DNA of 64,000 nucleotides from Amphiura filiformis (lineage: Eukaryota; Echinodermata; Ophiuroidea; Amphilepidida; Amphiuridae), in assembly GCF_039555335.1 (NCBI RefSeq), contig NC_092628.1:71267706-71331705 (forward strand), written 5' to 3'. Below are positions 17,224 to 26,200 of the stretch, one piece after another. The notes under the pieces are model-generated. The model worked only from the letters and a program-made list of their open reading frames with translations. It was not told the origin of the DNA and did not search any database. The position numbers were made by a program, and so were the translations under genes. Each line of letters starts with the position of its first letter. The first letter of the stretch is position 1.

Positions 17224-20200
17224 ATGTCAGCCTCCACACAAGAATCGTCTGGCTCTGCAAACCCAATTGTTTTCTTCGATATTACTGTCGGAGGACAGGT
17301 AAAGTTAAACGGAATCATTCTACATGATCACGATTGATGGAAAATTTCAGGGCCAAAGTTATTCACAATTTAAATATCTACAATTTGTTGCATATGATAA
17401 GCTTATCATTCACAATGCACACATGCAATGATGATCATGCATGCTGCATGCTTTGCATGGGGCCCAGGCAATTGTTCATGCAATTAAAGCCATTATGTAC
17501 GATTTCCTTCCAATTGTAAATTTGTTATTCTATACTCAAAATGCTGAAACAATACTAACGGGAAGGGTTTCTGTCCATTTGATTTGGAAATTGGAGCTGA
17601 AATTAACTAGTAGTATGATATTATCATGAGTATTAAAATAATTAAGTTAAGAGAGAGCGGATTTCATTTGGGTTATTTTTAGCAAATTATCCCTAGCAAC
17701 TTACAGCTCAAAAACCCAGTCAAAAAAACAAAAAACATTCCAAGCACGCACTCGGCGCAAAATGTAATGCTTGCGATGCGCAGTGGGCGCACGCGCACGG
17801 TCCAGCTCCAGTAACCTATTTCAATTTGATTGATCTGCGCATGTTGTTTTCACCGGCACTTGGTTGTAATGTATTCACGATTTCACCGGCATGACGTAGC
17901 TCCGTCCCGGCCTATAACGGCTACGGTTATTAGTTATTTTGGCTATTTATACATGATATCATATACGGAGGTACATGCATTTCTACAGGAGGATATGAAT
18001 TATGACTTTCATGCTTTATGTCGAACTTCGCTTTGTTTTTTGTTGACCTACAAACCACAGACCCTATATATTTGGCTGATGATTCCATTAATATTAAAGG
18101 TGCAAGTGGTGACATGTGCAAACATCACAAATATGCCAAAAAGTTAGGTTTGAAAAATATGCCAAAAAGTTAGGTTTGAAAAAAATTAACCAATTTCATA
18201 TTCTAAGTCCCATAAATGTACGACCTTATTAATCTTATATAAATATAAGATTATAAATAACATCGTACATTTATGGCTTTGATGATTTATGTTGTTCTCT
18301 GTCCAACGTATAAGACTGTTACCATGCATATGGGAATGATTGAAGGAATATAAACACAGTACTGAAGAGAACTATCATCCGCAAGGTAGATTTTCCCAAT
18401 CTCCCAAAACATCAAAACACCAAAAGCATGCAAGTCCCATACCGGTACAGTGGTGCACTTAGGCTCCTTTGCCTTGGGGCAATTTCATGTGCAAATAGAG
18501 AGCTCCCTCCTCTGAAATCCCAACAGAAATTCATGTTCTGTGCTCTTATTTGCTGGTGGGAATTTTACTGGAGGGCACTTTTAGGTTGTGCAGAAGTAAA
18601 CACTGAGCATGCGTGAGAATCGCTTTTCTGCAAAAGCGATCAAATTCAGCTTAAGGGCCAGTGGGGGTTCAGGGAGCAAATCCACCAGAAGCTGGTGGCA
18701 TTTACAGAAGCTGAGATGCAGAAATGTTGCCAAACTTTTTGACCCAGGCCAAGTACTCTCATGACAGTGAATTACTTCAATTAGTGGGATAGGAATTGCA
18801 AAATCATGTTTTCCACAAATTTATTGTAATAAAACAACATTTAAAGAAAACATGAAAAGCCAACAACAATATTAGGCCCCCCCCCCCCAAATAAATTAGT
18901 TGTGTTGTCTTCAGCGACTGACCCTAAATCCTGAAAAATCAGGGTCGTAATTTTTTTTAATGATGATTTTTTACAGATATGTTGTTATTGTTCACTTATA
19001 ATTGATATTTATTGAAACACTGGTCTTAAATTGATTACGGTACGGTATCTAACAAGTATTCAGTAGTCAAAATTGACTAATATGTCTCTAATGGAACAAG
19101 CATTATTTCATATTTGGCTTATTCCATGAAGTTGGGACACATTACAAATTGGGAGAATTTTATAGTATAAATGCAGTTTAATATTTCTTATATGAACCTT
19201 TTCTCCTCAGTTGATATTTTCTAAATAGATATGATGTTTAACTTTCATGTAAAAGTTACTTGAAAATTGTACCTATTATATTTTTATTTTTATGGGCCAT
19301 TAAGTGGTTGGTGTCCAGCACTTTTTAGGGCAAAAAACGTGACATAGAAAAAGCAAGTATGCGGAATACAAATAATTTCAATTGTAACATCAAACAGTCA
19401 CAGTTTTACATAATATTACATGAATTAATGTTGGTAGTAACTAAAAAGTACATTTAAACAAAACAGAAACCAGTCAATTAAAATTTATGGGAAAAAAAAA
19501 TGAGCTTCCCGATGCTACACGCGGTGTCCAGAAAAATAAGTGTAGCATCGGTATAACAGCTCACCCACAGCACATACATGTATCATTCAAATCAATTTGT
19601 TTTGTGTTTTTATTGATGTAAACGTGTTTATAGGAAATTTGACCAGCATTTGTGCCTAAGCTCTCAGTCGTTTTAAAATTTCATGAGAAAATGTCACCGT
19701 GGTGTCCACGTGTAGCATCGGGAGATTTCAAACCATTATACTTGCTTACAGCAAGGTCAGTACACATACTGACATGAATGGACTTATTTTAAGATGTGAC
19801 TGGGTAGGGGTTTTCAAGGAACTTGATTTGAGGAGCTGCCATTTTACCAAAGAGTAAATATTTTGAAAAAATGGTGCGGTGTCCATGTAGCATCGGGATG
19901 TAGCATCGTGATCAAAGTATAGCATTGGGAAGCAAACAGTTAAAATTTATGTAATTTCTTCTTATATTTTGAAACTAGATGACAAACAACTAAACATATT
20001 AACTTTTGAGGGCAGGCAAACATTGTAAAATATTTATGTGTTGAATACAAATTTTTATGCACTATCAGACACGGTGTCCATGTAGCATCGGTACACAGTT
20101 TTGTCAGTTTTATGTATTCACCAGTTTTTAGGTATCCTTGTTTTTTATTTTTCTACAACTTTTAATGTCTGTAGGCCCAAATATAATTTTTAAATAACTT

Positions 20201-23200: not shown

Positions 23201-26200
23201 TTTTTGCCATTTGTTTTTCATTAAAAAAATTTATAAACGTAACAATTTGATTTTTTTTTTCACTTTCGCTGGGATCACTGAATGGGACTTTTATCGCGGA
23301 TTATTCAAAACTTGTTTTTACCTACTGCTATATAGAATTAATCCGATTATTACATAACTTTGCCAGCGTATTCAAGACATAGGTTATGTAGGGATAAACT
23401 GTACATGGGTATAGAGGCCCTGCATGCTTTTATCGATTGGCTCCAAACAAAGGATTTGAACCGGTGTCCTTCACCGTAATCACGGCGCAGTAGCCTACAG
23501 TCCATTCAATCAAATGTTGTCAGTGTGCGAGACGAACGATGTATAAATCTGGAGGTCACATTATCACTTATCATGCTTATTGTAAAAAGTTTGTCCAATG
23601 CATATACTGTGTGTATTGTTCCCGGGTCAATGCAGTCAAGCAAACAGGTATTATATTTTGACAAGGCCGCTATAGTATATTCACAGGGGTGTCTTGAATG
23701 GCCAATCATATGGGACATAATCAAATTGCAGTGACTGCTTCCTTTGTTACCACATGTCAGTCATCTTGTGATTATTGGACCATGTAAACCTGCAAAAAAC
23801 CAGCCAAAGTGCAGGCCCTATGGCCCTGGACCAGGCTAAAATAAATTTAAGGGCACTTGCTAAAGCTTTCCATTTACTCCCCACACAACCCCATTCATGA
23901 TGTAACCTATTTGTTTTAATTATGAATTTATGATCAGAGGACTCACAGTGGGATTCATGAGTGGAGTTAACATGCATCTGGGAAGTGATAGTATTCTATT
24001 CTCACTTTCCTGCATTTGTGTATAAACCATGTACTGTATGGTACCCGTACCCGTGGAGTGCGGTAAAAATAGGGCATGAGTACGGGTGCGGGTCCAAAGC
24101 CACGGGTACGGAAATTGGGACCAGTGCAGGTACGGGTACAGTACTGGTACTACAAGTCTGGTATAGGGAGAGCGGTGTGTAGTGTAGTGAGTGACTTATG
24201 GCCAATGACCTTCTTTTTCTACAATTTTAGCATCAAAAACTTTGCAATTTTCTTTTTTCAGCAAATTTGTATTGTAAATTTTCAAATTAGAAACAAAATT
24301 TAAAATTTTGCTCCATTTTTGGGAAATAATGACCCATTTTTTCAAAATGTTATACCAAATGACCCCCTTCTTTCAAAATTTTATACCCAATTATCCCTTT
24401 TTCATTTTGTTATACCCAAATGACCCATTTTTATACAAATAGGCTCCTACTAAGCAATGCCAGACACCTGTCACATCATAAGTTGAATGACCCCCCCATA
24501 CACACACACGGGCATGGACTTTGACCGAGTCGGACTCGAGCGGACTCGAGTCCGGACTCTAATCATATTTTTGTTGGACTCGGACTTGGCTCGGACTCGG
24601 CACCCCTGGACTTGGACTCGAGTCCGGACTCAGACACAAAAGGACTCGGACTTGGCTCGGACTCGGATACAAATGGACTCGGCTCGGCTCGGACTCGGAC
24701 AAGCTGGACTCGGGTACAAGTCTGGTAATTGGTAATATTATGCGAATTTGCCATGGTAGGACATCATAAAAAGTATTTTATTAAGACATGTTATGGACAG
24801 TATGTTTAAAATAGAGAGAGCTAGTATAAAATGGTGTCCATGTAGCATCGTGATATTTGCCTCGACTACTGAACAACAAAGCACTTCCACAGAAATTCTG
24901 TACTTTCCAATGTAAAAGATCACTTTTTGTTGAAGTATGATAGTTGAAGTAACTAAAACACACATTACATTTAGAATTAAGTCATTTTGAAATTTTGACC
25001 CTTATGTCACACTTTGTGCCCCAACTTCATGGAGTTAGCCATTTGCGAATTGCGAGGTTTAATTAAAAGGTTTTAAAAAAAAGATAATCGATCGACTGAG
25101 ACCCAACTTTCCATTTTTCCCACTTGAGGGCAACACAACATTTTTTTTATATGATAAGGAAACCTATGGTATTTTCAGAAGAGATCGGCAAAATGGAGCT
25201 GCTGCAAGACTTTTTGCAACCTTTCACATTGAAACAGCTTATAACAAACTTTTAACAGTTGCATGATATGAAAACTTGTACATTGTCTGATACTGAAAAA
25301 AATTATGTTTCATTGTAGGAGATTGGGAGAATGAAGATGGAACTGTTTGCTGATATTGTACCTAAAACAGCCGAGAACTTCAGGCAGTTTTGCACTGGAG
25401 AACACAGGTAAGGGCCTTTGCTCCTGATTATGAGTTTCCTGTTGTTCCGCCCATTTGAAATTCACACCCTCAAGTTAGAATTAATTATGTGATTTTTCAC
25501 TTGTGTAAAAACCCAAATTAATATTAATTCTTTTTTTTTTACTCGAAATGCAACCTGCATTTGCTTCACATACTTCACAGTACCGTATTCATTCCAATAA
25601 GCGCCCAGGGCGCTTAACAAAGTCATTTTGGGTGAGCGCTTATTTTTTACCTGGTTTTTAATCATCAATCTGAAAGTATTTAGTTACTCTCAGTTAGTGC
25701 GCCCTCATATGTGTCTTAATTTAATATTATATTGAAAAAATGTTTTTTGAGGGCGAACTATAAAGATGGCCGCTGCCGCGCCAGCAAAAAATACGAATTT
25801 GAGACAGAATTAGCTCAAACTGGGCCTTTTAAAGGCATTTGCAGGTGGTTATTGTGAAGTATTTTTAATATCTATACATCTGCACACTATGAAATAGCGT
25901 CATAATTAAATTTTGGTGAACATTTTGGATACTTTTGATGCTCAATTTCCCTCATGCATGCATGTAAAATCACTCGACAGGTAAGCTTACTGGAAGTATT
26001 TTGACAACATTGGATGGGCGGTTAATAATTTCATATTGTGTTTGTTGCAAAGTCGCTGGGTGGGCGCTTATTGGGGCATGGGCGCTTATTGGAACGAATA
26101 CGGTACATGTAATTCAGCTCTTCTACATAAGCTTCAGTATATTGACTAATAATGAATAATGAAAAAATTACTTCGTTTTCTGAAAATATGTGATGGGAAA

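Follow-up and report, generated by a model that had tools for sequence, protein, structure and literature searches.

A regularly spaced array of a short bipartite box in intron 1 of a cyclophilin gene of Amphiura filiformis

The array and its boxes

The array sits in the first intron of a cyclophilin gene, in repeat-rich surroundings, within the window of 64 kb that was analysed (the whole stretch of DNA). It is built from a bipartite box, GGTGTCCA followed after 1, 3 or 11 bp by GTAGCATCGG, see Table 1. GGTGTCCA has seven matches in the window, all on the plus strand and all within the feature, while 100 shuffles give a mean of 1.25 and at most 5. GTAGCATCGG with at most one mismatch is found 12 times, where 1.04 are expected (largest 3), and nine of the 12 fall in the feature. 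The array contains five full pairs and one half-copy, at 19310, and a sixth full pair is found at 24833. The sequence-only reading, made before this analysis, had counted the motif pair six times between 19310 and 20262; five of these are indeed full pairs, but the copy at 19310 lacks GTAGCATCGG. It had also placed a further pair near the other end, and a full box with one changed base is present there.

The boxes at 19878, 20073, 20262 and 24833 are 94-100% identical to each other over 18-26 bp (blastn). Tandem Repeats Finder detects a tandem period of 13 at 19885-19912, and the half-box is repeated at 19887, 19900 and 19918. This repetition and the inverted half-box at 20245 had been overlooked in the earlier reading. 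Between 19310 and 20300, 14 of the 19 CpG fall within 147 bp of boxes; CpG retention in the box core (10/11) does not differ significantly from the flank (4/7, Fisher P 0.25).

Table 1. Box copies, dyads and inverted arms, in positions of the window.
Feature	Position	Strand	Remarks
GGTGTCCA matches	19310, 19523, 19701, 19878, 20073, 20262, 24833	+	
GTAGCATCGG matches in feature	19509(-), 19542, 19712, 19887, 19900, 20082, 20245(-), 20271, 24842		at most one mismatch
GTAGCATCGG matches outside feature	28808, 47250, 48732		at most one mismatch
Left arm of 27-nt inverted pair	19115..19141	+	perhaps a member of the feature
Half-box, GGTGTCCA alone	19310..19317	+	weakest member; no second half
Dyad	19501..19563		inverted half-box 19509-19518(-), GGTGTCCA 19523-19530 in loop, GTAGCATCGG 19542-19551; 11-bp gap between box halves; fold z -4.71, 0/200 shuffles as good
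Full box	19701..19721	+	3-bp gap
Full box	19878..19896	+	1-bp gap
Two extra imperfect half-boxes	19900..19928	+	directly behind the 19878 box; at 19900, and at 19918 with 2 mismatches in 11
Full box	20073..20091	+	1-bp gap
Hairpin unit of 189 bp	20073..20261		box at left end, degenerate inverted box at right; z -4.19 and -4.92 (two strands)
Large imperfect dyad around GGACACGGTGTCC	20226..20303		inverted half-box 20245-20254(-), full box 20262-20280(+) with 1-bp gap; z -6.11, 0/200 shuffles as good
Isolated full box	24833..24851	+	one base changed (GTAGCATCGT); 1-bp gap
Right arm of 27-nt inverted pair	25015..25041	-	perhaps a member of the feature

The left-to-left gaps between GGTGTCCA copies in the array are 213, 178, 177, 195 and 189 bp, the same values as reported before. 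The coefficient of variation (CV) is 0.047-0.077, and the probability of a CV this low or lower under random placement is 4.75e-5 (1.2e-4 without 19310, 3e-5 in a separate run). It had been suggested that the near-nucleosomal spacing may be chance; given this CV, with P between ~5e-5 and 1e-4, chance is an unlikely source of the even spacing. The six sites have no consistent helical phase in common (R 0.18 to 0.58), and nothing in the analysis points to nucleosomes.

Of the six copies folded, two form strong dyads and four are unremarkable. The inverted partner that had been proposed for an early copy is real, at 19509(-). Homology at the joints extends unequally, over 44 of 53 nt at 20262 (dyad arms aligned) and 20 of 24 nt at 19523. 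Only one of the six units, 20073-20261, forms a hairpin, with boxes at both of its ends; it folds clearly better than shuffles, which is what the inverted boxes at its ends predict, and the other units have z between -1.70 and 1.53 (two strands). Folded as DNA, 20068-20310 gives z -3.78. Rfam has no match at the gathering score in the window, and the best candidate in 19050-20520 is mir-22 (E 0.81; 17.4 bits, where the cut-off is 48). An array of RNA genes was rejected on this lack of an Rfam match together with the single unit that clearly folds.

Spacers and outer ends

Repeats usually decay evenly over their length. Here, the 19-bp words are nearly identical and the DNA between them is unrecognisable, in agreement with the initial impression of a conserved motif between drifting spacers. 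Summed pairwise scores of the spacers do not differ significantly from the null (global P 0.07, local P 0.09), blastn up to E 5 reports no match between spacers of the array, and Tandem Repeats Finder (score at least 40) finds no period near 190 in the array region. One spacer match, 22 nt at 82% (19468/19930), comes from another comparison. Three of 21 spacer pairs have z > 2, and more than 95% of the simulated unrelated sets show less similarity than the spacers do; this faint signal in the sequence could possibly reflect old homology between spacers. Head-to-tail units that can be aligned along their length, as in an ordinary satellite, are thus not seen, the spacers being within the null, while a near-invariant box in units of very low identity, as in conserved-box satellites, is what the array contains.

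Neutral decay was simulated at 0.8 substitutions per site per branch. Of the simulated sets, 92% outscore the observed spacers, and the chance that one copy retains 19 of 20 box sites is 5e-4, and smaller at higher divergence. Plain neutral decay of a tandem repeat is therefore disfavoured, as the spacers are too different beside boxes that are so alike. The proposal of a degenerate satellite relic is, by this simulation, unlikely in its plain neutral form, but a satellite-derived relic is still part of the explanation that we favour below.

The array had also been described as lying in a 6-kb inverted-ended element. Its proposed ends, near 18.9 and 25.15 kb, are 75% identical over 24 nt and belong to a short dispersed repeat with five copies in the window (the others at ~10.48, 11.31 and 11.82 kb); hence, these ends are not specific to one element. 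An inner inverted pair, 19115-19141 and 25015-25041, matches over 27 nt at 89% and is unique in the window. The stretches holding this pair (18.85-19.33 and 24.8-25.2 kb) score 19.5 without gaps, where the best of 59 random stretch pairs reaches 13, while the gapped score of 48 is not significant (null mean 34, maximum 54). By comparison with shuffles, the inner pair has no detectable relation to the box (P 0.09 and 0.52). Its arm at 19115 lies 195 bp left of the 19310 box, and that at 25015 lies 182 bp, left to left, from the 24833 box. Inspection by eye of 19115/25041 and of the box joints showed no target-site duplication, TA or other. In 18617-25500 no transposase frame was seen, the only stop-to-stop frame of at least 90 aa being antisense, at 23920-24195.

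Comparison with known systems

Outside this locus, two exact box patterns have no match in viral contigs. A looser pattern matches 46 loci there and an array-like pattern 39 loci, while five loci match in prokaryote genome contigs, where by our own estimate ~7 are expected by chance; each of these loci has one match. Each of these 90 viral or prokaryote loci has exactly one GTAGCATCGG in the DNA searched, so that none shows an array there, in collections that say little about the host. To judge from a literature search by box strings, the exact box is not in print, as no paper was found with these strings, nor with GGTGTCC together with mariner, terminal inverted repeat or transposon.

The CENP-B box is 17 bp long. 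Its consensus matches each of the six copies at 9 of 17 positions at best (P ~0.5 against shuffles), and it was rejected as a candidate.

The closest likeness is to satellites of nematodes. In Meloidogyne, satellites of M. chitwoodi and M. fallax with identities down to 32% have a common 17-bp box with one change, the switches of monomer type from 1d to 2a and from 2a to 1c occur exactly at the box, and box-guided segment exchange is proposed (PMC3694981). Both systems combine very divergent tandem units with a short near-invariant box. However, the boxes differ, Box 1 of Meloidogyne, unlike the box here, being similar to the CENP-B box, and there whole satellite families are involved, while here there are six units in one intron, with dyads (PMC3694981). 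The earlier statement that no described element has this layout was thus too strong, since box-sharing satellites have been published.

Among transposons, Sleeping Beauty, a Tc1-like element, has transposase sites in direct order in ends of ~220 bp, one of which also holds a half-site (PMC7827188). There, each end has two sites, which form part of the terminal repeat, in contrast to six sites here and a box with no detectable relation to the 27-nt inverted pair. The Tc1-like arrangement, with an identical site at the termini and in the interior, mirrored at the two ends, was not found at this locus. Against the 28-bp inverted terminal repeat of Mos1, which was chosen by eye, the 20262 copy has P 6e-4 and the other plus-strand copies P 0.006 to 0.29 (5' end). 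Plant Mutator-like elements have tandem copies of terminal sequence, possibly favoured via transposase recognition, but there it is long terminal repeats that are duplicated, while the copies here share only ~19 bp (PMC3310237). Helitron-associated satellites of the oyster Crassostrea gigas also form short scattered arrays, mostly of 160-180 bp monomers and often on mobile elements; there, each array is of one repeat family, while the spacers here do not align (PMC8268682).

Origin of the array

We suggest, tentatively, that the locus is a relic of an array derived from a mobile element or a satellite, with units of ~175-215 bp each delimited by a ~19-bp bipartite box (GGTGTCCA-n-GTAGCATCGG, sometimes a dyad). 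The box would have been the target of a sequence-specific DNA-binding protein (a transposase, domesticated or not, being the most likely kind), and would have been retained, or copied anew as the joint where units duplicated and exchanged. Units of similar length but differing sequence could in this way have been brought side by side, with the box as the joint and the spacers as cassettes that were exchanged or that diverged freely. The clustering of the boxes, their regular spacing (P ~1e-4), the contrast between box and spacer in simulation and the concentration of CpG in boxes count for such a box-delimited array, and the Meloidogyne satellites are a precedent. The dyads (two of six), the two-ended unit (one of six) and the unequal homology at joints fit repeated copying at the box. 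Against it count the restriction of the evidence to one locus, the lack of a visible transposase frame and of a target-site duplication by eye, the faint similarity of spacers, the single hairpin-like unit, the four unremarkable boxes, the lack of CENP-B resemblance and the P of 0.25 for CpG in core and flank.

It is less likely that the boxes are subterminal transposase sites of a single non-autonomous DNA transposon whose limits are the 27-nt pair (19115-25041), as an extended form of Tc1-like direct-repeat ends, its middle filled by later insertions. The inverted pair is significant in the ungapped test and unique in the window, its arms lie 195 and 182 bp from the nearest boxes (19310 and 24833), and the Sleeping Beauty ends have two direct sites each and a half-site in one (PMC7827188). 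The 20262 copy moreover resembles the Mos1 end (P 6e-4, with 12/13 positions matching without gaps), and nowhere else in the window is a score of 20 or more reached against the 5' end. However, the pair has no detectable relation to the box, the gapped end test is not significant, the boxes are not mirrored, as the six on the left and the one on the right are all on the plus strand, no duplication is seen by eye, and the other copies are less similar to Mos1, itself picked by eye. Of the earlier reading, the dyads and the kept motif between unrelated spacers are supported and the single 6-kb element is not; transposase-binding sites are possible but unproved.

The boxes could instead be sites of a host factor under selection in intron 1, a regulatory or chromatin array with spacing set by nucleosomes; this appears unlikely. 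The intronic position, the retention of boxes beside differing spacers, the CpG in boxes and the 177-213 bp spacing would be in its favour, while the lack of a consistent helical phase, the dyads and half-box repetitions, which resemble rearrangement, and the repeat-rich surroundings argue against it. If the boxes are host sites, the locus would offer a small natural experiment on binding sites placed at even intervals in an intron. Rather improbable is a cluster of small inverted-ended MITE-like elements that bear the box at their ends and came to lie head to tail by insertion or duplication. The box-bearing inverted ends and good fold of 20073-20261 and the palindromic joints at 19523 and 20262 are what it predicts, but only one of six units has this form, most lack a right-hand end though their left-hand boxes are nearly perfect, interiors do not align and no target duplication is seen by eye. 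A neutral, very old satellite, or a chance periodicity of unrelated sites, is very improbable: the summed spacer scores slightly above the null (P 0.07 and 0.09) speak for it, and the clustering, regularity and box/spacer contrast speak against it.

Returning to the relic of box-delimited units, it can be speculated, with little confidence, that the box was a cut-and-join site, where a transposase-like host protein repeatedly opened and rejoined the DNA, assembling nucleosome-sized cassettes of unrelated origin into one array and leaving the box as the joint. The spacers would in that case come from various repeat families or from host DNA. If the spacers are exchanged cassettes, the array would be a sequence-level case of box-guided segment exchange beyond the nematode satellites for which it has been proposed (PMC3694981).

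Box copies and their spacing

The feature is built on a bipartite motif of ~19 bp (here, the box), with GGTGTCCA as first and GTAGCATCGG as second half. The first half occurs seven times in the window against 1.25 expected, always where the sequence-only reading had placed it, i.e., in an array at 19310–20262 and in an isolated box at 24833. That reading had the full pair at all seven places; however, the copy at 19310 is without the second half. The second half, at ≤1 mismatch, has 12 matches (1.04 expected), 9 of them within the feature. When both halves are scanned together (top possible score 18, wide gaps costing one point), 19523, 19701, 19878, 20073, 20262 and 24833 score 17 or 18. 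The next-best places reach 15 (inverted copy at 20262) and 14 (48751, minus), and the top score among 20 Markov-simulated windows is 15; thus, the window holds no additional good copy. Half-box repetitions also occur at 19887, 19900 and 19918. Between 19310 and 20300, 14 of 19 CpGs lie inside the 147 bp of boxes and 6 in the 793 bp of spacers (the DNA between neighbouring boxes); their sum exceeds 19, as a few bases at the edges of boxes count in both sets.

The five gaps of the array have a CV of 0.077 (P 4.75e-5 under random placement), which argues against chance, allowed for earlier, as the source of the near-nucleosomal spacing. Without the half-copy at 19310 the CV is 0.047 (P 1.2e-4), and for the second half-box alone 0.064 (P 2.5e-4). 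No consistent helical phase of the sites was found at 10.2, 10.4, 10.5 or 10.6 bp (R 0.18, 0.54, 0.18 and 0.58).

Spacer divergence and possible origins

When seven stretches are globally aligned in pairs and scored against dinucleotide shuffles, the mean z is 0.33, with z >2 in 3/21 pairs; the reverse-complement control gives −0.10. For the five spacers, with secondary half-boxes trimmed off and 400 sets of composition-matched window stretches as null, summed similarity reaches only P 0.07 (global) and 0.09 (local), while the full boxes score 17 or 18 out of 18, in agreement with the proposal that the motif is kept and the spacers drift. The spacers may still share very old homology, since their sum of 443 lies above 428, the 95th percentile of simulated independent sequence. 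Simulated five-copy stars score >443 without exception as far as 0.6 substitutions per site per branch, in 97.5% of sets at 0.7 and in 92% at 0.8, where a simulated copy retains 19/20 box positions with a probability of 5e-4. Neutral decay thus does not account for the box/spacer contrast.

The box feature is real and unusual. Judged from its sequence, it is best, if tentatively, read as what is left of a mobile or satellite array whose units the box delimits, and this ranks above all the alternatives below. We suggest that a putative protein, perhaps a transposase in nature, would have bound the box, and that cassettes could have been exchanged between units, the box-delimited stretches of ~175–215 bp. 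In Meloidogyne satellites of 32% identity, PMC3694981 describes a conserved 17-bp box at which two unit-type changes exactly fall.

Boxes serving as transposase sites of one element are an unlikely alternative to the relic; Sleeping Beauty has direct transposase sites within ends of ~220 bp (PMC7827188). One box copy is similar to the Mos1 ends of PMC3419177 and PMC2642840 (P 6e-4, a likeness first spotted by eye), and for the other plus-strand copies P ranges from 0.006 to 0.29 when compared with the Mos1 5' end; this resemblance is a lead only. The box copies do not match the CENP-B box. A host site array is somewhat less probable than transposase sites of one element. A cluster of MITEs appears improbable, and decay or chance very improbable indeed.

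Supposed ends, dyads and fold-back structures

A 6-kb element (~18.9–25.2 kb) with inverted ends had been proposed; these ends were found to match at 75% across 24 nt. Its left end (18879–18947) aligns with 11807–11875 at 74%, and its right end (25126–25148) with 11296–11318 at 23/23 and with 10472–10496 at 88%. Scanning the window for the end sequence (≤4 mismatches) gives 7 places, of which 47287(+) and 32707(−) were left out of the family in the table as probable chance. The end sequence thus appears to be a dispersed short repeat, which speaks against the proposed element. The repeat forms two convergent pairs, 10481/11311 (0.83 kb apart) and 18897/25141 (6.2 kb apart), which could also stem from a family of inverted-ended elements. 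A second inverted pair of 27 nt (19115–19141/25015–25041), with arms 195 and 182 bp from the closest boxes, is significant in an ungapped but not in a gapped test; elsewhere in the window it has no close copy, and no kinship with the box was shown (P 0.09 and 0.52).

Features of the window
Feature	Position	Strand	Basis and remarks
LINE-type endonuclease + reverse transcriptase	4.5–6.9 kb		Pfam; two frames
End-repeat family, TTGTTGTGTTGCCCTCC and following	10481, 11311, 11824, 18897, 25141	+, −, +, +, −	five mutually aligning copies
Armc9 CTLH domain	11.5–13.1 kb	minus	Pfam; two frames
Cyclophilin exon 1	near 17.22–17.30 kb		translation search; limits our own reading
Strong hairpin	19501–19563		DNA folding, z −4.71; 0/200 shuffles as good
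Strong hairpin	20226–20303		DNA folding, z −6.11; 0/200 shuffles as good
Large fold-back element	20498–23140		intron 1, between boxes; long inverted arms
Cyclophilin exon 2	near 25.32–25.41 kb		translation search; limits our own reading
Cyclophilin domain	31.6 kb	plus	Pfam

The suggested dyad site, a box facing an inverted half-box, holds at the two hairpins but not at 19701, 19878, 20073 and 24833, whose folds are unremarkable (z −0.73 to 0.03; six copies folded, the 19310 half-copy left out). The arms flanking 20262 align, gapped, over 44 and 53 nt, and those flanking 19523 over 20 and 24 nt. The unit 20073–20261, bounded by a box on the left and a degenerate inverted one on the right, also folds into a hairpin (z −4.19 and −4.92 on the two strands); the remaining five units have z −1.70 to 1.53. 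The fold-back element has paired arms of 81 nt (98%), 65 nt (94%), 50 nt (96%) and 45 nt (93%), with others matching at 78–84%; it may have split an array that formerly extended to 24833.

Gene setting and other repeats

The window (G+C 36.1%) holds intron-bearing genes of animal type, and 5/10 submitted frames have Pfam matches. As exons 1 and 2 flank the array in the translation search, it lies in intron 1 of the cyclophilin gene, presumably of PPIH type. Two minus-strand open frames (42757–43044, 43827–44183), in which R, Y, P and acidic residues abound, have no Pfam match at 0.001; we take them to resemble a Y-box-protein tail.

Among other repeats, an inverted-repeat element at 48983–50072 with ends TACAGGGTGTCCCAGAAAAAATTACC (59 nt at 88% and 151 nt at 77%) has GGTGTCC in common with the box. 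Its end does not resemble Mos1 (P 0.49); it may be like other Tc1/mariner ends. A dispersed element with ends like TTAAGGTGGTACTACACCCC occurs at 36867, 37328, 46502 and 61726, in several direct and inverted copies. B-box-like GTTCGAGCC/GGTTCAAATCC were seen by eye on the minus strand at about 21090–21190 and 23440–23560; the two stretches are perhaps tRNA-derived SINEs, and ARAGORN finds no tRNA. In or near the cyclophilin gene, two stretches are tandemly duplicated, with units of 177 bp (29976–30500; three copies, 95% matches) and 199 bp (31934–32336; two copies, 97%), sizes close to the box spacing.
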